IMG/VR virus record: IMGVR_UViG_3300048580_000579
Coordinates: 1-35,214 of that record
Reading direction: 5' to 3' (one strand)
From: a virus
Length of the DNA stretch: 35,214 nucleotides
Under the pieces are notes generated by a model. It had not been told where the DNA came from. It made no database searches and worked only from the letters and a program-made list of their open reading frames with translations. Numbering within the stretch: position 1 is the first letter of the stretch; each line of letters begins with the position of its first letter. A program made the translations under genes and the position numbers. Of this stretch, positions 5,393 to 21,145 are shown piece after piece.

Positions 5393-6199
5393 ATGAAGCT
5401 TTCCAAGCCGTTTGCCATCGCCACCGAAGGCAAGACCATCGACGGCCGCGTCATCAGCCGCGACTGGATCACCCAGATGGCGGCGAACTACGACCCCAAG
5501 GTCTACACCGCCGTCGCCAATCTTGAGCACTATCTCTCCAGCCTGCCCGACAGCGTCTTCGGCGCCTACGGCAAGGTCGTCAGCCTGGCCACCCGAGAAG
5601 TAGAAATCATGGGCGACAAGAAACTGCAGCTGATGGCCGTCGTCGAAGCCAACGACAAACTGGTCGCCCTGCAGAAGGCCGGCCAGAAATGCTTCGCCAG
5701 CATGGAAGTCCTGCACGACTTCATCGGCAAGGGCGTCGCCTACCTCTCCGGCCTCGCCTTCACCAACACCCCGGCCAGCATCGGCACCGAAGCCATGAAA
5801 TTCAGCGTTGCCGACGCCAAGGGCGAGCGCTACGCCTTCGCCGACGAAGTCGCCATCGAATTCGAATCCGACGCCAAGCCAACCGCTGGCGACTCCCTCT
5901 TCGCCAAGGTCAAGGACCTGCTCGGCCTGGGCAAGAAAGAAGCCGACGACCGCTTCGCCGATCAATCCAGCGCCATCGAAGCTGTCGCGCTGAGCCAGAA
6001 AGGCCTGCTCGAAAACTTCGCCAGCATCGAGCAGCAACTCGCCGACCTGGCTGCCGGCGGCAATGAAATCAAGGAAGCCCAGGCCAAGTTCGCCGCCGAC
6101 TTCGCTGCCCTGCAGACCAAGCTCGGCAACACCGACGGCGACGACAAGGGCCGACCGCCCGCCACTGGCGGCGACGGCCAGGTCAAGGCCGACTGCTGA
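5393..6199 (+). CDS. O: Capsid scaffolding protein/protease (P2 gpO family)
   Basis: The 268-residue product begins MKLSKPFAIATEGKTIDGR and follows gpO. The N-terminal half is a serine protease, with candidate catalytic residues Asp17, His46 (NLEHYLSS) and Ser103 (CFASMEVLHDF) at positions equivalent to the P2 triad. The C-terminal part (about 160-268) is helical, Ala/Glu/Lys-rich and coiled-coil-like, as expected for the scaffold domain. gpO directs procapsid assembly, cleaves gpN and itself, and leaves the shell. It is the first gene of the rightward late operon, immediately before the major capsid gene. Confidence 0.94.
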   Translation: MKLSKPFAIATEGKTIDGRVISRDWITQMAANYDPKVYTAVANLEHYLSSLPDSVFGAYGKVVSLATREVEIMGDKKLQLMAVVEANDKLVALQKAGQKCFASMEVLHDFIGKGVAYLSGLAFTNTPASIGTEAMKFSVADAKGERYAFADEVAIEFESDAKPTAGDSLFAKVKDLLGLGKKEADDRFADQSSAIEAVALSQKGLLENFASIEQQLADLAAGGNEIKEAQAKFAADFAALQTKLGNTDGDDKGRPPATGGDGQVKADC

Positions 6200-6234: not shown

Positions 6235-7275
6235 GTGAAACAGGAAACCAGAAAAGTATTCAATCAGTACCGTGTCGACATGGCCAACCTCAACGGTTCG
6301 GATGATCCGGCTGATCAATTTACCGTCACGCCGACCATTCAGCAGAAGCTGGAAACTCGCATCCAGGAAAGCTCCGCCTACCTGAAGAACGTCAACAACT
6401 ACCCTGTCGACGAAATCAAGGGCGAGAAAATCGGCATGTCCACCGGCTCCATCGCCAGCCGCACGGACACCAATGTCCAGGAGCGCACACCGATTGACCC
6501 GACCAGCCTGGACAACAAGTTCTACGAGTGTGCCAAGACAGATTTCGACACCTTCGTGCGCTACCAGACGCTCGACATGTGGGCGAAATTCCCCGACTTC
6601 CAGCTGCGCATGCAGGCATTACGCGTTGAACAACAGGGCCGCGACCGCCTGATGATCGGCTGGAACGGCACCAGCCGCGCCGCAACTTCCGACCGTGTCG
6701 CCAACCCGCTGCTGCAGGACGTCAACATCGGCTGGCTGAAGAAACTGCAGACCGAAGCCGCTGCGCGCTACATGACTCAAGGCGCCGTTGCCGGCTCCAT
6801 CAAGGTCGGCCCCGGCGGCGACTACGAGAACATGGACGCGCTGGTCTACGACATGCGCTCCAACCTGCTCGCTCCGTGGTTTGCCCGCGACAACACCTTC
6901 CTCGCCCACTGCTCGGCAGACATGCTCGACGAAAAGTATTTCCCGCTGGTCGCTGCTCATGGGGGCACGCCGAGCGAATCCAACGAACTCGACAAGATGC
7001 TGTCCGCCAAGAAACTCGGCGGCCTGGGCGTCATCGAAGTGCCGTTCTTCCCGGCTCGCACCATTTTCATCACCAAGGTCGGCAAGAGCGGCGGCTCCAA
7101 CCTGTCTGTTTATTGGCAGTCCGGCTCCCGCCGCATGACCATCAAGGACAACCCGGAGCGCGACCGGGTTGTGACCTTCGAATCGGTCAACGAGGACTAC
7201 GTCATCGAAGACCTTTCTGCCGCTTGTGCCGCGATCAACATCAAGCTGCCGGACGGCGCTGGCGGCTGGGCCTAA
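6235..7275 (+). CDS. N: Major capsid protein (P2 gpN family)
   Basis: This 346-residue protein is close in length to P2 gpN and has its N-terminal signature (KVFNQYRVDMANLNG, then TPTIQQKLETRIQESSAYLK). The fold is HK97-like. Maturation by the gpO protease should remove roughly the first 30 residues, as in P2. The start is a GTG at 6235 with an AGGAG site 7 bases upstream; the next Met would cut into the conserved N-terminus. A strong hairpin follows the stop codon. Confidence 0.95.
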   Translation: MKQETRKVFNQYRVDMANLNGSDDPADQFTVTPTIQQKLETRIQESSAYLKNVNNYPVDEIKGEKIGMSTGSIASRTDTNVQERTPIDPTSLDNKFYECAKTDFDTFVRYQTLDMWAKFPDFQLRMQALRVEQQGRDRLMIGWNGTSRAATSDRVANPLLQDVNIGWLKKLQTEAAARYMTQGAVAGSIKVGPGGDYENMDALVYDMRSNLLAPWFARDNTFLAHCSADMLDEKYFPLVAAHGGTPSESNELDKMLSAKKLGGLGVIEVPFFPARTIFITKVGKSGGSNLSVYWQSGSRRMTIKDNPERDRVVTFESVNEDYVIEDLSAACAAINIKLPDGAGGWA

Positions 7276-7334: not shown

Positions 7335-8060
7335 ATGCGAATCAGCCCCGCCAAAGCCCATTACCAGAACGCCATGGCCGCCGCCCAAACCCCGGCCGAA
7401 GACCAACCCCTCGACCGCAACGCCGCCAACGCCTACGAACTCATGCTGCACAAGCTCGCCGAAGACAAGCGCCGCCTCAAGGACGTCCAGTCCATGGAGC
7501 GCAAGGCCGAAGTCAAGGCCCAGCTGCTCCCTGAGTACCTCCCCTGGATCGAAGGCGTCCTCGCCGGCGACAGCGGCCGGCAGGACGACGTCCTGATGAC
7601 CGTCTTCGTCTGGGCCATCGACATCGGCCAATTCGACCTCGCCCTGCGCATCGGCGCCTACGCCATCGCCGGCAAGCTCACCATGCCCGACCAGTACAAG
7701 CGCGACGTCCCCTGCGTACTGGCCGAAGAAATCGCCGACTACGCCCTCAAGCAGGACGATGCCAGCCAGGTCGCCCTGCAGCCGCACCTCTTCCAGGCGC
7801 TCAACCTGACCGCCGACAGCGACATGCCCGACGAAGTCAAGGCCAAGCTCCTCAAGGCCTACGGCTACGCCCAGCGCGCCGCCGGCACCGCACTCAACGA
7901 CGCCCGCCTGCTGACCAACGCCCGCGACGCCCTGACCCGCGCCCTGCAGCTGCACGACAAGGTCGGCGTCAAGAAAGACATCGAACGGCTGGAGACGGCC
8001 ATCAAGAACTCAACCGCCCAGGTCGCCGCCGACGCCACGGCCAAAACCGAAGGCCCCTGA
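7335..8060 (+). CDS. M: Terminase endonuclease subunit (P2 gpM family)
   Basis: The 241-residue protein has the gpM N-terminus (MRISPAKAHYQNAMAA) and the central segment 'DDVLMTVFVWAIDIGQFDLA'. gpM is the small terminase subunit that cuts cos DNA and works with the gpP ATPase. The start is preceded by AAGGAG. The C-terminal third holds helical repeats ending in an Ala/Lys-rich tail. Downstream, where P2 has L directly, 3.1 kb of cargo intervenes. Confidence 0.93.
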   Translation: MRISPAKAHYQNAMAAAQTPAEDQPLDRNAANAYELMLHKLAEDKRRLKDVQSMERKAEVKAQLLPEYLPWIEGVLAGDSGRQDDVLMTVFVWAIDIGQFDLALRIGAYAIAGKLTMPDQYKRDVPCVLAEEIADYALKQDDASQVALQPHLFQALNLTADSDMPDEVKAKLLKAYGYAQRAAGTALNDARLLTNARDALTRALQLHDKVGVKKDIERLETAIKNSTAQVAADATAKTEGP

Positions 8061-8088
8061 AACCGAGCGGACCCCGCACCCGGGCGGC

Positions 8089-8135
8089 TCGGGGAGCACG
8101 CCGGGTTATCTCCTTGGCCCAGCCACGCTCCCCGA
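8089..8135 (+). other. Long-loop inverted repeat at the left border of the cargo
   Basis: TCGGGGAGC (8089-8097) is perfectly complementary to GCTCCCCGA (8127-8135), with a 29-base loop. It lies between the gpM stop and the first cargo gene and has no T tract. It could be an RNA element that tunes read-through from the capsid operon, or a mark of the cargo insertion. Confidence 0.45.
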
Positions 8136-8173
8136 CCACCGCCCACCCCGGAACCACCGAAAAGGACCCCATC

Positions 8174-8677
8174 ATGCTGAAAAACCTCCGCGCCACCCTG
8201 GTTAGTTTCGCCCTCGCCACCGCCTGCATCTTCGGCGGCTTCATGTCCTCGGCGCACGCCGCCGCCACCGTCCACGTCCCCGACAGCTTCCTCTTCGAAG
8301 CCGTTACCGGCGTCATTGACCTGGATACCGACACCATCAAGTGCGGCCTGACCGCGCCGGGCTACACCCACGACCGCGTCAATCACAGCCGCCGCAGCCA
8401 TGTCACCGAGGTTACCGGCACCGGCTACACCGCCGGCGGCCAGACCTGCACGCTCAGCGTCGTCAAGGACACCACGAATCACAAGCTGGTCATCACCATG
8501 CCGCAGATTCAATGGTCGGGCGCCACCGTCACCGCTCGCGGCGTCTATGTCTACAAGAGCACCGGTGTCGCGGCTAATGACCCGCTGATCGGCTACGCGC
8601 AATACAGCACGGATATCACCAGCACCAACGGCACCTTTACCGCGCCGTTGATCAACTTCGAATTCTCCAACTACTGA
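8174..8677 (+). CDS. Secreted form of a phage virion-type beta protein (cargo gene 1)
   Basis: The 167-residue product starts with a clear Sec signal peptide: Lys/Arg, a hydrophobic core (TLVSFALATACIFGGFM), and a likely signal peptidase I site after Ala-His-Ala at about residue 29. The mature part has the pattern of a widespread small phage protein family: a VIDLDTDTIKCGL segment, VTEVTGTGYTAGGQT, TITMPQIQW-like strands, and a GVYVYKSTGVAANDPLIGY stretch. Members usually have no signal peptide and lie near capsid or tail-fibre genes. ATG 8174 is chosen because an AAGGA site precedes it and it begins the signal peptide. An exported virion-type protein in a head operon is unexpected. Its function is unknown; an envelope protein or a secreted decoy is possible. 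Confidence 0.72.
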   Translation: MLKNLRATLVSFALATACIFGGFMSSAHAAATVHVPDSFLFEAVTGVIDLDTDTIKCGLTAPGYTHDRVNHSRRSHVTEVTGTGYTAGGQTCTLSVVKDTTNHKLVITMPQIQWSGATVTARGVYVYKSTGVAANDPLIGYAQYSTDITSTNGTFTAPLINFEFSNY

Positions 8678-8690
8678 CCACGGATCCAGC

Positions 8691-9587
8691 ATGCGCGAAC
8701 TAGGCCTTCAGAGCATTTCCGGCGCGCCCGGCACGGCAGCCGCGCTGACCCTGGGCGACGTTGCCGGCAATCCGCGCATGTCGGCCATCGCGCCGGTCGG
8801 CTCGCCGATTCACTACGTTGTGGCCATCGAAAGTACCGGGCAGATGGTTTGCCGCGGCGTCGGCTTTTCAACCGGTGCCGGAGGTTTTACGCGGGTGATG
8901 GAATTCGCGACTTTTGATGGCGCGGACTACACCACCGATCCTGCCAGCTTCGGCAGCATCCCGGCAGGCTGCGTCATTTACTGCTCGGGTGGCGCCACCG
9001 ACATCATTACGTCCCATGCGCCGGTCTGTGGCCCCGGCGAAAACCTGTGGTTCGACCCGGCTGGCCCGAATAACAAGGTTTCCTCGGCCACCTGGACCGT
9101 CGGCGCAGTCAATCGAGACTACTTCTGGCGCGACAGGATCGTGGTCAATCAGAAAATTGACCAACTGGCCATGCACGCCTCCGCTGCTTCCGGCGTCATC
9201 GATTTCGCGGTTTTCGAGGTCAATTGGGCAACCGGCAAGGCGGGAAAGCTGCTGCTCGGCTGGCAAGGTGTCACGCTGATCGCCGGCATGACGCCGATGC
9301 TGCTCTCGGCCGCCACCCTCGGCGCGCTCCCCAAGGCCGCCCAGCGCCTGCCCATCGGTGACGTTTTCTTCATGGCCAACTGGTCGAACACGACTGGTCA
9401 GCCTGGCCGTGTCAAGGATGGTACCGGGTCGATGGACGGCTCCCTGGTCGCAGACCTCGCCAGCCCGCAGCATATCCAGTACGTCAATCGGACCAACGGA
9501 ACGGCATTTGGCGACAATCCGACGATCACCGGGCGGATCGCCAGTTCATATCCGAATATCCCGCTCGTCGCAGCCCGGGCCGCCTAA
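8691..9587 (+). CDS. Hypothetical cargo protein 2, possible virion surface protein
   Basis: The 298-residue protein is rich in Gly, Ala, Thr and Asn and appears all-beta, without a signal peptide or membrane segment. I recognise no family. Features include short glycine-rich turns, four Cys residues in residues about 50-120, and a C-terminal 'RIASSYPNIPLVAARAA' tail like those of phage surface proteins. It lies 13 bases after cargo 1 and directly abuts the repeat-rich hydrolase (TAA followed by ATG), so the three form one transcription unit. I infer a structural partner of the next protein. It lies on the capsid side of the operon, so a head fibre or decoration role is as likely as a tail role. 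Confidence 0.6.
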   Translation: MRELGLQSISGAPGTAAALTLGDVAGNPRMSAIAPVGSPIHYVVAIESTGQMVCRGVGFSTGAGGFTRVMEFATFDGADYTTDPASFGSIPAGCVIYCSGGATDIITSHAPVCGPGENLWFDPAGPNNKVSSATWTVGAVNRDYFWRDRIVVNQKIDQLAMHASAASGVIDFAVFEVNWATGKAGKLLLGWQGVTLIAGMTPMLLSAATLGALPKAAQRLPIGDVFFMANWSNTTGQPGRVKDGTGSMDGSLVADLASPQHIQYVNRTNGTAFGDNPTITGRIASSYPNIPLVAARAA

Positions 9588-11168
9588 ATGTCGCTCATCG
9601 TCGGTGTTTTCGGCAAAGAAATCCTCGGCCGCCGCCTGCTTGCAGCCGGAGGCGGCACCAACGCCACCGGCGAAAGCGGCACCGGTACCGGTATCGGTGC
9701 CGGCACCGGCGCGGATGCCTTTGGCGATGCCCTGGCCGAAACCGGCACTGGCACCGGCGCCGGGGCCGGTACTGGCGCCGATGCGTTTGTTCTCCCGACT
9801 ACCGATATCGTCATCACCTTCACCGGCGATTCGAACGGCGACGGCCGCGCCACCAACAATCAACCAGGGCCGCCCGACGGCGCGTGGATGCTCAACAGCG
9901 CCGGGCAGATCGTCCCGCTCGCCGATCCGACCGCCGGCGGGACGCACACCTACCCGGTGCTTGACGATGGCACCAGCTCCAAGGGGTCCATCCTGCCCCG
10001 CCTGGCGCAGCACTATTACGCGGCCGGCAAGACCACGCTGTTCGTCCCCAACTGCAAGGGCGGTTCCCAGACCCTGAACTGGGCACCTAACGAAGACACA
10101 GCCACCCTCTACGGCGCATCGCAGGCGCGGATCGACGCGGTCGGCGGCGTCGACGCCATCGTCGTACTGCTCGGCGCCAACGACGCCATCGGCGCCGTCA
10201 GCCAGGCAACCTTCGTCGCTCGCGCCAACGCCTACCTCAATGCGCTGGCCGCACGTAACCCGACGTCTCAGATCTACCTGGTCAAGGTGCACGACTTCGC
10301 CGGCTACGGCACGCAGGTCCAAACCATCCGTGCCGGCGTGCAGGAAATCTGGGACACCAACCCCAACGTCCGCCCCGGCGGCGACATGGACGGCATCACC
10401 ACGGCCGTGCATTACACGACCGACGCCGAAATGATCGAGGTCGCCGCCCGTATCTATGCCGCGCTGACCGCTGACGCCATCGCCGAAACAGGCACCGGCA
10501 CCGGCGCCGGGGCTGGATCTGGCGCCGATGCCACCGGAGACGGCATGGCTGAAACTGGCACCGGCACGGGCGCTGGCGCCGGCACAGGGGCAGACGCCTT
10601 TGGCGACGCCCTGGCTGAAACAGGTGACGGCACTGGTGCCGGCGCCGGTGCTGGCGATGACGGCTACGCCACGCAAACCGGCGGCGATGCCCAAGGCGAA
10701 ACCGGCACCGGCCTCGGCGCCGGCTCCGGAAACACCACCGATGCCACCGGCGAAGCCACCGCCGAAAGCGGCACAGGCACCGGCGCAGGCAGCGGCTCGA
10801 CAACCGACCCCGGCGCCCCCCCCTTCGACGCCACCGCCTTCCTGACCCGCCTCGCCACGCTCACCGTCATCGCCCGGCGCGCCATCGGCCAGCCGTGGAC
10901 GGTCGGCGAATCCGCCCGGCTCAACCTCGTCGCGGCCGATCACGAGGGCGACCCGTACGACCCGGAAACCCTGCGCCTGCTCGTCAAGCCGCCGGCCGCC
11001 GCCGTCGCCATCTACGACAAGGGCGCCTTCACCCGCGACGCCGCCGGCATCTACCACATCGAGATCCCGCTCACCGGCAGCGGCAACTGGTACTACCGCG
11101 TCGAAGCCGGCAACCGCGCCATCGTCGACGGCGCCATCACCGTCCAGCCCTCCCGCTTCGTCGCCTGA
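9588..11168 (+). CDS. SGNH-family hydrolase embedded in Gly/Thr/Ala repeats (cargo gene 3)
   Basis: This 526-residue protein has four parts. Residues 1-28 form a short N-terminal segment. Residues 29-67 and 300-410 are 22-residue repeats of the type ETGTGTGAGAGTGADAFGDALA. Residues about 70-295 are an SGNH/GDSL-type hydrolase with Gly80-Asp81-Ser82 (nucleophile), Gly196-Ala-Asn198-Asp199 (oxyanion block) and a probable catalytic His275 after Asp268. Residues about 411-526 are a beta-rich C-terminal domain. SGNH enzymes remove acetyl or acyl groups from glycans, so a surface-polysaccharide deacetylase role is plausible. The usual Asp three residues before the His is Thr272, so Asp268 may substitute or the acid may be absent. 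There is no signal peptide, which fits a virion component more than a secreted enzyme. Confidence 0.75.
   Translation: MSLIVGVFGKEILGRRLLAAGGGTNATGESGTGTGIGAGTGADAFGDALAETGTGTGAGAGTGADAFVLPTTDIVITFTGDSNGDGRATNNQPGPPDGAWMLNSAGQIVPLADPTAGGTHTYPVLDDGTSSKGSILPRLAQHYYAAGKTTLFVPNCKGGSQTLNWAPNEDTATLYGASQARIDAVGGVDAIVVLLGANDAIGAVSQATFVARANAYLNALAARNPTSQIYLVKVHDFAGYGTQVQTIRAGVQEIWDTNPNVRPGGDMDGITTAVHYTTDAEMIEVAARIYAALTADAIAETGTGTGAGAGSGADATGDGMAETGTGTGAGAGTGADAFGDALAETGDGTGAGAGAGDDGYATQTGGDAQGETGTGLGAGSGNTTDATGEATAESGTGTGAGSGSTTDPGAPPFDATAFLTRLATLTVIARRAIGQPWTVGESARLNLVAADHEGDPYDPETLRLLVKPPAAAVAIYDKGAFTRDAAGIYHIEIPLTGSGNWYYRVEAGNRAIVDGAITVQPSRFVA
9672..9788 (+). repeat. Gly/Thr/Ala coding repeats, block 1
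   Basis: Nearly two copies of a 66-base (22-codon) unit encode the N-terminal Gly/Thr/Ala array of the hydrolase gene. The array stops in mid-unit after Gly-Ala-Asp-Ala-Phe, exactly where the hydrolase domain begins. Confidence 0.8.
10485..10817 (+). repeat. Gly/Thr/Ala coding repeats, block 2
   Basis: About five degenerate copies of the same 22-codon unit follow the hydrolase domain. The first two are nearly identical to block 1, and the later ones drift. The array likely forms an extended glycine-rich linker or stalk. Confidence 0.8.
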
Positions 11169-11171
11169 TGC

Positions 11172-11201
11172 TCTAGGCCGGCGGCCTACACCCCGCCGGC
11201 C
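11172..11201 (+). promoter_or_regulatory. Late activator dyad overlapping a GC hairpin, upstream of L
   Basis: TCTAGG (11172-11177), seven bases, CCTACA (11185-11190) has the same spacing as the dyads upstream of O and V, followed by CCC. The same DNA forms a perfect 9-bp hairpin (11176-11184 with 11193-11201). A CG tract (11207-11215) follows. I infer a terminator-like structure ending the cargo combined with an Ogr-activated restart for L. A 12-codon minicistron (11229-11267) ends across the L start. Confidence 0.5.
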
Positions 11202-11263
11202 TTCCCCGCGCGCGCAAGGCAGACCACCATGGCCGGAATACAAACCTTCCCCTGCCCGCGACC

Positions 11264-11725
11264 ATGATCGTCTCCGCCCCATCAACGCCCGCCATCGAGC
11301 CGCCGCTCGGCCTCGGCGAATTCTGGCCCGCCATCGACCCCGTCGACATCCGCGAGGCCCAGCGCATCGACAACACCATCCCGCCCGCGCGCCTGCGCGC
11401 CGTCATCATCGAAGCCGCCAGCACCACCATCGAAGCCCTGGCCGAATGGAAGATCGCCAAGATCGAAGCCGGCGAAACCTCGCTGGAAGGCATCAGTGCG
11501 GTCTCGATCGACGGCGAAAGCGTCCTAGTCCATCGCTTCCGCCGCGCCGTCGGCTGCCTCGCCAAGGCCCTGCTCCTCGAACGCCTGCGCGATTTCGACA
11601 GCACCGCCAAGGGCGACAAGAAGGCCGACGCGCTGACCGACCCCATCGACGACTGCCGCCGCGACCACCACTTCGCGCTCGCCGGCATCGTCGGCCGCCC
11701 GCGCAGCACCATCGAGCTAATCTGA
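11264..11725 (+). CDS. L: Head completion/stabilisation protein (P2 gpL family)
   Basis: The 153-residue protein resembles gpL: a Pro-rich start, the 'FWPAIDPVDIREAQRIDNTI' segment, and a C-terminal 'DDCRRDHHFALAGIVGRPRS' block typical of the family. gpL closes the filled head at the connector. The start ATG overlaps the stop of a 12-codon upstream minicistron (CCATGA), suggesting coupled initiation, since no strong ribosome site is present. The stop overlaps the start of X (TGATG). Confidence 0.92.
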   Translation: MIVSAPSTPAIEPPLGLGEFWPAIDPVDIREAQRIDNTIPPARLRAVIIEAASTTIEALAEWKIAKIEAGETSLEGISAVSIDGESVLVHRFRRAVGCLAKALLLERLRDFDSTAKGDKKADALTDPIDDCRRDHHFALAGIVGRPRSTIELI

Positions 11726-12583: not shown

Positions 12584-13364
12584 TGGAGACATCGGCGCCG
12601 CCGTCATTCAGTTGCAACGCCAGCTCAACGACGCCGGCTTCAAGATCGCCGCCGACGGCTGGTTCGGCGACACCACAGAAGCCGCCCTGATCGCCTTCCA
12701 GCGCCGCGCCGGGCTGGTCGCCGACGGCATCGCCGGCCCCAAGACCCTGTCCGTGCTCGCCACCCGCGACCGCAACCACAAGCTGCTCGCCGAAGCCGAC
12801 CTGCAGGCCGCCGCCGACCGCCTGGGCATCCCCGTCGCCGCCATCAAGGCGATCAACAGCGTCGAAAGCAGCGGCAGCGGCTTCCAGTCCGACGGCCGCC
12901 CGGTCATCCTCTACGAACGCCACGTCGCCTGGCGCCTGCTCCACGAAACCGGCGAACCCATCGACCCCCGCTACCCCAACCTGATCAACCAGCAACGCGG
13001 CGGCTACATCGGTGGCGCCGCCGAATGGTCGCGCCTGGCCACCGCCCTGCAGGTCATGCCGGCCGCCATCGCCTACCAGTCCTGCAGCTGGGGCCAGTTC
13101 CAGATCATGGGCTATCACTGGCAACGCCTCGGCTTCGCCGACATCGACGCCTTCGTCTCGGCCATGCAGTCCAGCGAAGCCTCGCAACTCGCCGCCTTCG
13201 CCCGCTTCATCGAGACTGACCCGGCCCTGCTCAAGGCCCTCAAGGCCCGCAAGTGGGCCGACTTCGCCCGCCTCTACAACGGCCCCGCCTACAAGGCCAA
13301 CCTCTACGACACCAAGCTCGCCCGCGCCTACGAGCGCTACAGCCCGACCGCGGAACCGGCATGA
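12576..13364 (+). CDS. Endolysin: peptidoglycan-binding domain plus N-acetylmuramidase
   Basis: The 262-residue protein has an N-terminal PG_binding_1 domain (about residues 5-62, with DGWFGDTTEAALIAFQRRAG). The catalytic domain (about 75-255) is of the N-acetylmuramidase family (DUF3380 type), with the probable catalytic Glu97 in INSVESSGSGF and SCSWGQFQIMGYHW later in the chain. It cleaves the MurNAc-GlcNAc backbone. There is no signal peptide or anchor segment, so export must depend on a holin. The binding domain at the N-terminus is the usual order for this family in Gram-negative phages. Confidence 0.93.
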   Translation: MRNGDIGAAVIQLQRQLNDAGFKIAADGWFGDTTEAALIAFQRRAGLVADGIAGPKTLSVLATRDRNHKLLAEADLQAAADRLGIPVAAIKAINSVESSGSGFQSDGRPVILYERHVAWRLLHETGEPIDPRYPNLINQQRGGYIGGAAEWSRLATALQVMPAAIAYQSCSWGQFQIMGYHWQRLGFADIDAFVSAMQSSEASQLAAFARFIETDPALLKALKARKWADFARLYNGPAYKANLYDTKLARAYERYSPTAEPA

Positions 13365-13561
13365 AGGCCATCGCCCGCGACGACCTGATCGCCCTGCTCC
13401 TCGATCACCAGGCCCGCCACCCGGACAAAGGCGCCTGGCCGGTCGAAATCCGCGACCGCTGGCTGATCGTCCCGCCCATGGGTATCGAACACTGCCCCAT
13501 CGACCGCGTCATCATCCTGCGCGGCGAGCCGGTCCATGCCCTTACCCACAGCGGAGACTGA
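13361..13561 (+). CDS. Small hypothetical protein in the lysis cassette
   Basis: The 66-residue protein starts at ATG 13361, overlapping the endolysin stop. It is soluble, mixed charge, with the segment DRWLIVPPMGIEHCPIDRVI and no membrane span. I do not recognise the family. Its place between endolysin and spanin suggests a lysis accessory or an untested phage protein. Confidence 0.6.
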   Translation: MKAIARDDLIALLLDHQARHPDKGAWPVEIRDRWLIVPPMGIEHCPIDRVIILRGEPVHALTHSGD

Positions 13562-17496: not shown

Positions 17497-19683
17497 ATGG
17501 AACTAAAAAACTTTTTCGCGCAGGACCTGCAGGGCAACGTTATTCCCAGCCCGACCGTGTACCTATACCTTCCGGGCGGCACGACGCTGGCGACAGGTCT
17601 GGAAGACCAGGACGGCAACGCGATTGACAACCCATTCACCGGCAGTAGTAAAGGCCAGGTTACCGTGGCCGCCCCCGATGGCGACTACGACATCCGTGTT
17701 GTCGGCGCAGGGCGCGATACAACCATGCGGGTACGGTTCATCGACAGCGTGTCCGGTGCCGAAACCCTGCGAAATGAGATTGAGCCTGTTTTGGCCGAGA
17801 TCGCCTATAGCAATCAACGCTCGTCACCTTTTGGACGCAGCGGCATGCGGGTCGCGGTCGGCGAAATGCGCGATTCCCATTATGGCTGGGGCGGGGTCGT
17901 CGCTTTCCCGTCCGGCAAGTGGGTGCATGTCTATCGAAAGGCGTCGACGCATGGCATTAAAGACAATGCTGAACTCCGCGCCAGGGACAGCTACGACGGT
18001 GGCGCAAACTGGGTGAATGACCGGCTTGTTTATCAAAATGCAACGCACGACGCCAGACCTGACGCCCCCCGCCTTATGGCTAACAACCGGATGGGGTTTT
18101 TCGTCAATCGCCAGGACGAGGGCAGCACGCATTTCAGCCCGCTGTTCTTCAAGTCCGACGACGAGGGCGATACTTTTTCCTCCGCCGAGGTGACCACCTC
18201 ATCGCCATACACATTCCAGGCTGCCAACGGCGGCATCCTGGATTTTCCGGCCAGCCAGGGCGGGCACGACACGCTCGGATTTATCAGTTATGGGTACCTT
18301 TCAGCGGTAGGCCTTGACGCCTTTACGACAAACAATAACGGCGACACCTGGAGCACGGTCACCGAAGTCGCCGCCCCGGATGGCGTTTTGATCTCCGCTA
18401 TTTCCGAGAATGTCGGGGTCCGCGTCGGAACTCAGGATAAGTGGATTTTTATTGCCCGCAACACGATGGTTGATGGATCCAAGCGCATGGCGGTATGGAC
18501 GACCACGAACATGCTCAACTGGGGCACGCCGCACGATGCCGGCGTCGATCTGAATGCTAACCCGCCCGGCGCGCTGTACGACTCGGCCACGAACAAATTC
18601 CACCTCCTGAGCTTCGCTCGTGGCAACCGGGCTATCGCCGAGTTCGAAAATCACCTGCTGCACATTGAGGCCGACGCCGACGCGCTCTATAACGCAAACG
18701 GAAGTTTTAGCGCGCTCGGCCTGTCCTACTCGATGCTGACGCCAGTGCCGTCCTGGGCGACCGGCTACATCGCGCCCTTCCGCCACAACGGCAAGTGGTT
18801 TGCCACCTTCACCTGTGGCGAGACAGGCATCGCTGGCGGGAATCTCGCCCTGCAGGTCTTGATCGGTGATTTTGCCGCCACCGGCGCCGACACGATGAAG
18901 CTGGTCTGGGCGCTCATGCGGCATCAAAAAGATGTGCATCTGCTTGAGGTGGTTGCCGATGACAACGAGCTGGCCACCGCCCCGCTGCTGCTGAAAAACA
19001 AATCGAAAACGGCGAGTGTGTCTCTGGGGGCTTACGGGTTATCAGCGTTAACGGGTGGTGCGACCTATACCGTCACCGTCAACAATGCCGTGGTGTTTGA
19101 CTTCGCCTCGACCTTGCTTGTAAAAACGACCGACACCATCTACGGTCTAGCCGACAAAATTCCCGGAGTTTCAAGCTCGGCCCTGCATCTCGGGGTCCAA
19201 GGCTCGACATACCCGGCCTCGGCGTCGTACAGCGGGTCGTCGTCGTCGCGGAAGCACCACGTCTTTCACAATTTGAACGGCGAAGTGGGGTCGATCTCAA
19301 CATCCGGTACCGCGACAGCATTTACCACGTCGTCCGATGAATCCTGGAAGGAATTTATCGGCAACTATGACCCATTGGCGGCGATAGCGATCATCAAGGC
19401 CGACCCGGTCAGGGAATTCAACTGGAAACAGGATCGCGGTGGCGGCTACGCAATCGGATGGGGTGCCCAAACTTCATACGCCGTATCGCAGGACCTGGCC
19501 ACGCCAGGCGGTTGGTTTAAAGACGATATCGAGTGTGCGCCTGACACCGAGGGGGCCGTCTACGTGCCGTGGGGCGTGGATCAGGCTAAACGAACCCCTT
19601 ATCTATGGGCCGCGATGTCGTATCTGGTCGACAAACTCGCCGAGGCCGAGGCGAGGATTGCCTCGATCGAGACCAAATTGTGA
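17497..19683 (+). CDS. Sialidase-fold tailspike with C-terminal S74 chaperone domain
   Basis: The 728-residue protein has three parts. Residues 1-85 look like a virion-attachment domain (ELKNFFAQDLQGNVIPSPTV and YLYLPGGTTLATG). Residues about 110-470 have a sialidase/BNR beta-propeller pattern with Asp-box-like motifs at Ser165-Trp172, Ser220-Phe227 and Thr278-Trp285. Residues about 608-728 fit the peptidase S74 intramolecular chaperone, with a probable Ser613/Lys618 dyad (SSDESWKEF), a 'FNWKQDRGGGYAIGWGAQ' block and a C-terminal coiled coil. Such chaperones help trimers fold and then cut themselves off, as in endosialidase tailspikes. The glycan substrate is unknown; the catalytic residues of a true sialidase were not confirmed. 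GC is lower than in the flanking genes. Confidence 0.82.
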   Translation: MELKNFFAQDLQGNVIPSPTVYLYLPGGTTLATGLEDQDGNAIDNPFTGSSKGQVTVAAPDGDYDIRVVGAGRDTTMRVRFIDSVSGAETLRNEIEPVLAEIAYSNQRSSPFGRSGMRVAVGEMRDSHYGWGGVVAFPSGKWVHVYRKASTHGIKDNAELRARDSYDGGANWVNDRLVYQNATHDARPDAPRLMANNRMGFFVNRQDEGSTHFSPLFFKSDDEGDTFSSAEVTTSSPYTFQAANGGILDFPASQGGHDTLGFISYGYLSAVGLDAFTTNNNGDTWSTVTEVAAPDGVLISAISENVGVRVGTQDKWIFIARNTMVDGSKRMAVWTTTNMLNWGTPHDAGVDLNANPPGALYDSATNKFHLLSFARGNRAIAEFENHLLHIEADADALYNANGSFSALGLSYSMLTPVPSWATGYIAPFRHNGKWFATFTCGETGIAGGNLALQVLIGDFAATGADTMKLVWALMRHQKDVHLLEVVADDNELATAPLLLKNKSKTASVSLGAYGLSALTGGATYTVTVNNAVVFDFASTLLVKTTDTIYGLADKIPGVSSSALHLGVQGSTYPASASYSGSSSSRKHHVFHNLNGEVGSISTSGTATAFTTSSDESWKEFIGNYDPLAAIAIIKADPVREFNWKQDRGGGYAIGWGAQTSYAVSQDLATPGGWFKDDIECAPDTEGAVYVPWGVDQAKRTPYLWAAMSYLVDKLAEAEARIASIETKL

Positions 19684-19747: not shown

Positions 19748-21145
19748 ATGGCCGAATTCCGCACTATCCACACCGCCTACGGACTGACCGCCATGGCCGC
19801 CGCCGAAGCGGCCATGGCGCAGATCAACCTGACGCACATGGCAGTCGGCGATGGCAATGGCAACTTCGTCGAAGTGTCCGAAAGCCAAACCAACCTGGTC
19901 CGCGAGCTGTTCCGCGCCGCTCCAAATAGGGTCTATCAAGATCCAGAGCTCCCCAACAAGTTCACCGCAGAACTGGTTATCCCGGCGACCGAAGGCGGCT
20001 TCGTGTTGCGCGAAGTCGGGGTCTTCGATTCCAGCGGCGGGCTGTTTGCCGTCGGCAACCTGCCCGACACTTACAAGCCGATGGCTAGCGAAGGGGCGTA
20101 TGCCGATACGGTCGTCCGCATGGAGTTCATGGTGACCAACGCCAGCGTCGTCACGCTGCAGATTGATCCGAACGTGGCGGTGGCCACCCAGGCCTGGGTC
20201 ATCAACAATGTGACCCCATGCTCGCTGTTCCCGGGCGGCACTACCGGACAGATCCTGCGAAAGAAAACCAACGGCTGCGGCGACACCGAGTGGGCCGATC
20301 CCACCGACGCCAACGTGTTCGTGGACAGCATCGAGGAAATGCAGACCCTGGCGGACGGGCAAACGGTGGTGACGCTGGCCGTCTGCACGACCTACGGGCT
20401 GTCGGTGTACATCGAAGGCAGTCGGCTGCGCGGCGATGAATGGACGGCGGACCTCGTCGACGAGACCAAGTTCACGCTGGCCGTAAGTCGCCCAGCCGGC
20501 ACCAGGCTGGTCGCCGTCCAGAACGAACCGGCCGGCAGCGCGCCTTATCCGCTGATCAGAACCCTGAATCTGTCGGATGTCCCGAACAAGGCGCTGGCGC
20601 GGGCGAACCTTGACGTTTTCAGCAAGGCAGAAACCCGCCAGATGGCGCCGGCCGGGCTCGTCGCCTACTTTGCCCGCAGTTCTGCACCCGCCGGCTGGCT
20701 GAAGGCCAACGGTGCCGCCATTTCTCGCACGGCCTACGCCGACCTGTTCGCCGCTATCGGGACGAGTTTCGGGGAAGGAGACGGCTTCAACACCTTCAAC
20801 CTGCCGGACGCCCGCGGTGAATTCCTGCGCTGCTGGGATGACGGTAGAGACGTTGACGGCGGACGGGAATTCGCCAGCTACCAGAGCGACCGCATGCAGG
20901 ATCACTATCACGGTACCGGCGATTTCGGACAAGAGGGCAATGACGACTGGTGGGCCATCGTTCGCAGCTGGGCCGGATCATTCACTGGCCGATGGGTGGC
21001 CGGCGAGAGCAATTCGAATAAAACCAAGGCCATCACCGGCGCCGACTCCGGAACGCGATACACGGGCACCACGAATCAGCACGCGGTGATCGGCAGCGAA
21101 ACCCGTCCTCGCAACATCGCGCTGCTCGCCTGTATCAAATACTGA
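19748..21145 (+). CDS. H: Tail fibre protein (P2 gpH-like, collar domain)
   Basis: The 465-residue protein begins with a phage tail-collar fibre N-terminal domain (DUF3751 type: 'FRTIHTAYGLTAMAAAEAAM' and 'LVIPATEGGFVLREVGVFDS'). Around residues 300-370 it has a tail-collar domain ('LVAYFARSSAPAGWLKANGA' with TFNLPDARGEFLRCWDD). The C-terminal tip (about 375-465) is His, Asn and Gly-rich and probably binds the receptor. It is shorter than P2 gpH. A GGAAGG site precedes the ATG. A spike of a different type lies just upstream, so the virion may carry two receptor-binding proteins. Confidence 0.9.
   Translation: MAEFRTIHTAYGLTAMAAAEAAMAQINLTHMAVGDGNGNFVEVSESQTNLVRELFRAAPNRVYQDPELPNKFTAELVIPATEGGFVLREVGVFDSSGGLFAVGNLPDTYKPMASEGAYADTVVRMEFMVTNASVVTLQIDPNVAVATQAWVINNVTPCSLFPGGTTGQILRKKTNGCGDTEWADPTDANVFVDSIEEMQTLADGQTVVTLAVCTTYGLSVYIEGSRLRGDEWTADLVDETKFTLAVSRPAGTRLVAVQNEPAGSAPYPLIRTLNLSDVPNKALARANLDVFSKAETRQMAPAGLVAYFARSSAPAGWLKANGAAISRTAYADLFAAIGTSFGEGDGFNTFNLPDARGEFLRCWDDGRDVDGGREFASYQSDRMQDHYHGTGDFGQEGNDDWWAIVRSWAGSFTGRWVAGESNSNKTKAITGADSGTRYTGTTNQHAVIGSETRPRNIALLACIKY

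Follow-up and report, generated by a model that had tools for sequence, protein, structure and literature searches.

A gene cassette between M and L in one clade of P2-like phages, probably an exchangeable accessory-fibre module

In the P2-like virus record IMGVR_UViG_3300048580_000579 (Peduoviridae; 35,214 nt, analysed at its full length and here called the window) the head operon genes M and L are separated by three plus strand open reading frames (ORFs) coding for proteins P1, P2 and P3. This insert is probably an exchangeable accessory-fibre module giving the virion an extra appendage, likely at the neck. As presently sampled, a single entry into the head operon, in one Peduoviridae clade, seems to account for it, and its contents appear to have been swapped since. 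In the arrangement we propose, P1, with its arm-connector fold, and protein P2 (not to be confused with phage P2), with its conserved N-terminus and variable C-terminus, would link the virion to P3. The latter would be the payload, in which a flexible Gly/Ala/Thr stalk bears an SGNH domain of the carbohydrate O-acyl esterase type and an Ig-like domain at the end probably serves for docking close to the head-tail joint. Independently of the gpH tail fibres, such an appendage may let the particle bind surface polysaccharide, perhaps acylated, at additional points or act on it enzymatically.

An optional cassette at the M-L junction

Loci carrying gpL were gathered from IMG/VR by similarity to the window gpL, the sole route by which the occupied clade was sampled, and the M-L junction was then measured in each. 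Amongst 83 non-identical gpM sequences from P2-like junctions, 76 have an empty junction of around 100 bp and seven an occupied one, and these seven form a single clade (support 99/95) in a maximum-likelihood gpM tree. Occupancy maps onto this tree as one change, a number as low being reached in none of 500 shuffles. The insertion site is thus clade-specific, and it is always filled in those clade members whose locus spans the junction. Four named P2-like phages, of Burkholderia, Acidovorax and Pseudomonas hosts, have junctions of about 100 bp and phage P2 itself one of 99 bp, so the insert is no standard part of the family. A preliminary description of this DNA, made from the sequence alone, had seen a three-gene cargo between M and L; it is confirmed in this, the flanks being gpM and gpL by Pfam. 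The genes concerned are:

8174-8677, plus strand: protein P1, 167 aa, phrog_644 beta domain and Sec signal peptide
8691-9587, plus strand: protein P2, 298 aa, likely an adaptor plus a variable beta domain
9588-11168, plus strand: protein P3, 526 aa, SGNH (SASA-like) domain, Gly/Ala/Thr-rich repeats and C-terminal Ig-like domain
7335-8060, plus strand: gpM, terminase small subunit, left neighbour (Pfam Phage_term_smal, 2.1e-48)
11264-11725, plus strand: gpL, head completion protein and head-tail adaptor, right neighbour (Pfam Phage_GPL, 5.9e-42; phrog_71, head-tail adaptor Ad1)

No paper on M-L cargo, or on an M-L RNA, in P2-like phages was recognised in the library searched, and profiles of the third gene and of the clade's gpL matched no bacterial genome when run against bacterial genome contigs. 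The location of the cassette, the exchange of content within one clade of P2-likes and the signal peptide on a connector are new to us, the parts themselves being of known kinds. The boundaries are clean enough for any P2-like genome to be searched for such a cassette.

At least four types of content occur in the seven occupied junctions: SGNH/GDSL hydrolases, LamG-type repeat proteins, an 839-aa fibre-like protein, and the trio of the window. The same trio is found in one other locus, L005, with P1 73% and P3 70% identical, and with protein P2 alike only across its N-terminal 85-100 or so residues, the C-terminal part being unlike (BLASTP 35% over 84 aa, E 5e-5). Between these two loci both P1 (dN 0.20, dS 0.47) and P3 (dN 0.21, dS 0.62) are under purifying constraint, and the dS of these cassette genes, at about 0.5-0.6, lies above that of M and L (0.13-0.26), as expected of a recombining cassette. 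Loci L019 and L096 each hold one GDSL/SGNH hydrolase (1.5e-8 in L019, weak in L096), and L015 the 839-aa protein, whose C-terminus is weakly galactose-binding-like. In L016 and L098 the P1 slot is filled by a GP4 'fiber I' family member that begins with a signal peptide (PF23140 5.2e-36 and PDB 8jou 8e-8 for L016; the L098 protein is 51% identical to it), accompanied by two more small proteins, by a LamG lectin with repeats in L016 (Pfam, 3.8e-7) or a related repeat protein in L098, and by a separate Ig-like ORF homologous to the P3 C-terminus. L017, L018 and L100, truncated at their left ends, retain apparent remnants of a payload.

Contents as different as these, together with a protein P2 lacking known relatives, could be taken to mean that unrelated genes have simply piled up between M and L, the junction serving as a random landing pad for morons with no common role. 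This seems very improbable, in that a single functional type, be it as carbohydrate-directed hydrolase, as lectin or as repeat fibre, covers most of the payloads, and the P1 slot and Ig slot recur.

A small protein of some 60-66 aa, with the pattern LIDHLVAHRxxxPxxGxWPVELRDR...HDKVVIL, is also encoded within several cassettes or at their right-hand end (L016 2480-2671, L096 8816-8998, L017 128-310), and a similar one is found in the lysis region of the window at about 13361-13561.

A putative connector, adaptor and stalked esterase

P1 matches phrog_644, a phage protein family of unknown function, at 2.6e-22 (residues 29-156 on profile positions 2-131 of 174), and has relatives in around 100 phage records. 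Two of these have informative neighbours. The phiCbK protein gp75, 43% identical over 75% of the length, directly precedes gp76, which was proposed as a head filament from its size, lectin domain and position but was undetected by mass spectrometry (PMC3556154). In MiniFlayer the homologue gp6 is encoded between the major capsid gene and that of the head-tail adaptor, near what the authors term a possible adsorption module (PMC10690885). An AlphaFold2 model of P1, with pLDDT above 90 for the mature part, compares by VIA-align with T4-type baseplate proteins (Z 11.8 and 11.1; 125 residues, 2.6 A), with the Bxb1 tail-wing arm (Z 8.5) and with A511 and phi812 arm segments (Z 6-7), and in BFVD it resembles, among others, tail-collar fibres and a 7-7-1 structural protein. 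Foldseek against the PDB gave nothing at E <0.001; GP4 8JOU was not among the structures listed for P1, which carries no weight either way. By this model the P1 fold is that of a virion connector, a fold that does not itself tell the location on the virion.

Protein P2 matched nothing in Pfam, PHROG or the phage collection, and short-peptide scans of IMG/VR with P1 and protein P2 gave no matches. Two large proteins encoded directly downstream of P1 homologues elsewhere (L130 6406-8724 and L164 6388-8208) have N-termini resembling that of protein P2 by eye (GTG..L...AxxG...F), although a hidden Markov model (HMM) of the protein P2 N-termini did not pick them up.

P3 had no match in the phage collection, nor did it or its profile give a convincing match to the PDB by sequence. 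Its Pfam SASA match (PF03629) is at 0.0045 and 17.1 bits, under the cut-off of 24.8, whereas the L005 orthologue is over it at 6.8e-9 and 36.1 bits. The GDSN, GAND and D/H motifs (catalytic Ser, Asn and His) are, by a reading by eye, invariant in alignment A3, and Tandem Repeats Finder (TRF) returns a period of 66 in 2.7 copies at 10473-10648. The preliminary reading of P3 as a repeat-rich SGNH hydrolase is upheld for the repeats and, by way of the orthologue, for an SGNH-type core. Its parts are:

9795-10472, plus strand: SGNH core with GDSN (S82), GAND (N198) and D/H (H275), from alignment A3, Pfam SASA and motifs by eye
10473-10817, plus strand: Gly/Ala/Thr-rich repeat stalk, from TRF and composition, with a shorter one at 9645-9788
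10893-11165, plus strand: C-terminal Ig-like domain, from HMM matches, a separate ORF in L016 and L098

A stand-alone copy of the Ig-like domain matches FixH/MG2. When a profile of the P3 C-terminus and the L016 and L098 proteins was searched against all collected ORFs it gave two further matches, L129 (5.6e-12) and L156 (1.1e-7), both in loci that had been fetched for a P1 homologue. The order in L129 is cement-like protein, capsid, two small genes, P1 homologue, sulfotransferase, 933-aa repeat protein, Ig protein, tail-terminator-like and major-tail-protein-like. P1, repeat payload and Ig domain therefore travel together, and in L129, from an unrelated phage, they do so between capsid and tail-terminator genes. 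The Gly/Ala/Thr repeats of the 933-aa payload match the phiCbK gp76 family (3e-6), a match that may reflect composition only. The sulfotransferase-family gene (6408-6986; PF13469, 2e-6) is itself inside the payload module, directly after the P1 homologue.

A probable appendage at the neck

The closest known parallel is gp34-gp35-gp36 of Alishewanella phage LSH1, three optional genes for a payload, a fibril of GP4 type and an Ig-fold protein, whose products the authors propose to be ordered virion-Ig-fibril-payload (PMC13243795). There the carbohydrate-active payload has a long poorly folding part and the fibril is related to GP4 8JOU; in a passage of that paper citing the GP4 structure paper, the GP4 fibril connects an adhesin to the nozzle collar. 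The L016 and L098 cassettes likewise combine a fibril of GP4 type with a LamG-type payload and an Ig protein. The window also encodes payload (P3 SGNH and repeats), connector (P1) and Ig fold (P3 C-terminus) together, and its insert is optional among relatives by the junction counts above. In contrast the LSH1 genes lie after the lysis genes of a siphovirus and the payload is a lyase-like beta helix, while in the window P1, which bears a signal peptide, belongs to phrog_644 and not PF23140, and the Ig domain is part of P3 instead of a separate protein. Direct homologues of fiber I of the Ralstonia podophage GP4 (PF23140, PDB 8JOU) fill the P1 slot only in L016 and L098; P1 of the window gives no PF23140 match at E up to 1, and GP4 is a podovirus.

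In phiCbK the P1 homologue is similarly followed by a Gly-rich repeat lectin-like protein, but gp76 has 2,799 aa, its filament is proposed and not shown, no SGNH domain is reported, and gp75 lacks a signal peptide. MiniFlayer gp6-gp9 also places a large protein after the P1 homologue, this being however a Streptomyces satellite phage whose fibres bind the neck of its helper. Anabaena phage A-1(L) gp80-82 (PMC10966104) has a neck fibre made from several genes and bearing a carbohydrate-binding module at its distal end, an analogy only and not a sequence relation.

The preliminary description had favoured capsid decoration or head fibres, and the part of it with the best support is a virion appendage, not standard in the family, encoded from the head operon. 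Whether such fibres would instead sit capsid-wide, on the capsomers, is a fair question given the head-operon position, the phiCbK gp75 gene adjoining that of the proposed head filament and MiniFlayer gp6 directly after the capsid gene. Pfam and PHROG searches gave no similarity to known decoration proteins, and neck-attached fibres are preferred because the Ig domain in L129 lies between capsid and tail-terminator genes, beside the tail-terminator-like gene, because P1 folds like tail, baseplate and arm connectors and because L is a head-tail adaptor. Decoration of the whole capsid is therefore quite unlikely. The window has its own tail-fibre region at the usual place, with gpV, J and I and, at 19748-21145, a gpH-type fibre bearing tail-collar domains, so the M-L genes are additional. 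P2-like phages, which are common as prophages, are generally taken to adsorb by tail fibres only; if the accessory-fibre reading is right, exchangeable lectins and esterases at the head-tail junction would let them choose hosts in a second way, independent of those fibres.

Several points weigh against a neck appendage. The presence of the products in virions is inferred from their genes, and the placing at the neck comes from gene order and two distant loci. Protein P2 lacks a recognisable homologue, and its AlphaFold model, made from two sequences, has a pLDDT of 31 and was not used. The SGNH match of P3 itself stays below the Pfam cut-off, its orthologue alone passing. Finally P1/P1b carry signal peptides, which a part of a virion assembled in the cytoplasm should not have.

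Signal peptides and the host envelope

8174-8260, plus strand: P1 signal peptide (29 aa), MLKNLRATLVSFALATACIFGGFMSSAHA, heuristic positive, present on P1/P1b in 4/4 clade members

The signal peptide implied by the preliminary view of P1 as secreted is borne out by the heuristic. P1 of the window and L005 and the GP4-type counterpart of L016 and L098 start with Sec signal peptides (K/R, at least 12 hydrophobic residues, A-x-A), and the start codon of window P1, ATG 8174, is preceded by AAAAGGA. The L005 and L098 signal peptides are alike (MKNLRLTL.../MKNIRHTL...) and are joined to mature domains of different families. Of 80 phrog_644 homologues from outside the clade none has a signal-peptide extension from any in-frame start, a habit of the 80 examined rather than a family definition, which P1 of the window and L005 break. 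The CcrBL9 homologue, a candidate for upstream extension to a signal peptide, was ruled out by an intervening stop codon. Ten other cassette products, including protein P2, P3 and the single-gene payloads, were all negative.

A part assembled in the cytoplasm would not be expected to be exported, so that P1 may have its role outside, be it exclusion, receptor cover or late assembly at lysis, or else its signal may not serve as one. One version of the former, rather doubtful, is that P1 or its GP4-type counterpart would be Sec-exported and folded in the periplasm, joining the particle only at lysis, or would coat the cell surface to bind sister virions. If true, this would mean a fibre part that matures outside the cytoplasm and is attached at a late stage, for which we know of no case in tailed phages. 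Four signal-peptide-bearing connector proteins now make exported or not a direct and cheap question.

The same signal peptides lend themselves to a different role, in which P1 is exported, the hydrolase alters host polysaccharide, and the cassette is a lysogenic-conversion moron for envelope modification or superinfection exclusion. SGNH esterases are able to modify O-acetyl groups, and terminator-like hairpins follow the L018 and L019 cassettes. However P1/P1b alone carry an export signal, and so envelope modification, raised as the alternative in the preliminary description, is less likely for protein P2 and P3 and may hold for P1. No sigma-70-type promoter was seen in 7900-11400, and the repeats, Ig, LamG and fibre connectors are virion-type domains whose homologues lie within structural modules. 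Overall an envelope role for the cassette is unlikely, and on the accessory-fibre reading its genes would be transcribed together with the late head operon.

A conserved RNA element behind gpM

8063-8148, plus strand: M-L RNA element, outer stem GGGCGG/CCGCCC, internal loop C / CCA, inner stem TCGGGGAGC/GCTCCCCGA, from covariance model R1 and covariation

The left inverted repeat TCGGGGAGC/GCTCCCCGA is real (8089-8097 with 8127-8135), but it is not the boundary of the cargo for which it had been taken: it forms the inner stem of an RNA element that empty sites and phage P2 have too, and as an insertion edge it is thereby rejected. Each of the seven occupied junctions retains the element after gpM, with the cassette on the gpL side of it. 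Model R1 has a single match in the window (59.8 bits) and finds the element in 45 of 50 P2-like loci searched, the other five beginning downstream of the expected site, and in none of 46 unrelated phage loci; most of the 50 are members of the model or their relatives. Phage P2 has its copy in the M-L gap (NC_001895, around 5904-5985). Over 52 different sequences the 12 pairs are 97.7% paired against 73.7 when shuffled, ten of them with two-sided changes, and the covariation score is 0.529 against 0.105, with slid controls at 0.05-0.11, the shuffles ignoring relatedness. The pair 34/102 occurs as 20 GC, 18 AU and 14 UA and is never broken, and the internal loop, with C facing CCA, hardly varies. 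Since complementarity is kept while sequence changes, an RNA rather than a DNA-binding site is indicated. The element belongs to no family in Rfam 15, and the Rfam matches in the interval were microRNA families far below cut-off in GC repeats, dismissed as chance. It may act at the 3' end of the O-N-M message or in controlling the gene that follows, and being family-wide and present in the classical model phage P2 it is genetically testable at once.

The right edge and other features

11175-11202, no strand: right hairpin AGGCCGGCGG/CCGCCGGCCT, then GCGCGCGC, with a 10-bp perfect stem (11175-11184 with 11193-11202)

The right edge had been described as a hairpin overlapping a late activator site, and of these the hairpin is there. 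The Ogr-type late activator of phage P2 has the consensus TGT-N12-ACA. An exact scan for it in 8061-11263 gave no match, this being the phage P2 consensus, which may not be that of the present clade. Terminator-like hairpins with T runs are at the corresponding place in sister loci L018 and L019 only. A stretch CGCGCGCGC-A/G-GGC is found just before gpL in the window (11208-11230), L005, L018, L019 and L098, all of them cassette-bearing, and in L018 and L019 it is the T-tailed hairpins that precede it.

Apart from the cassette, a 728-aa ORF at 17497-19683, without a Pfam match, lies between gpI and the gpH-type fibre of the window and has a GC content of 0.588, below that of its neighbours.

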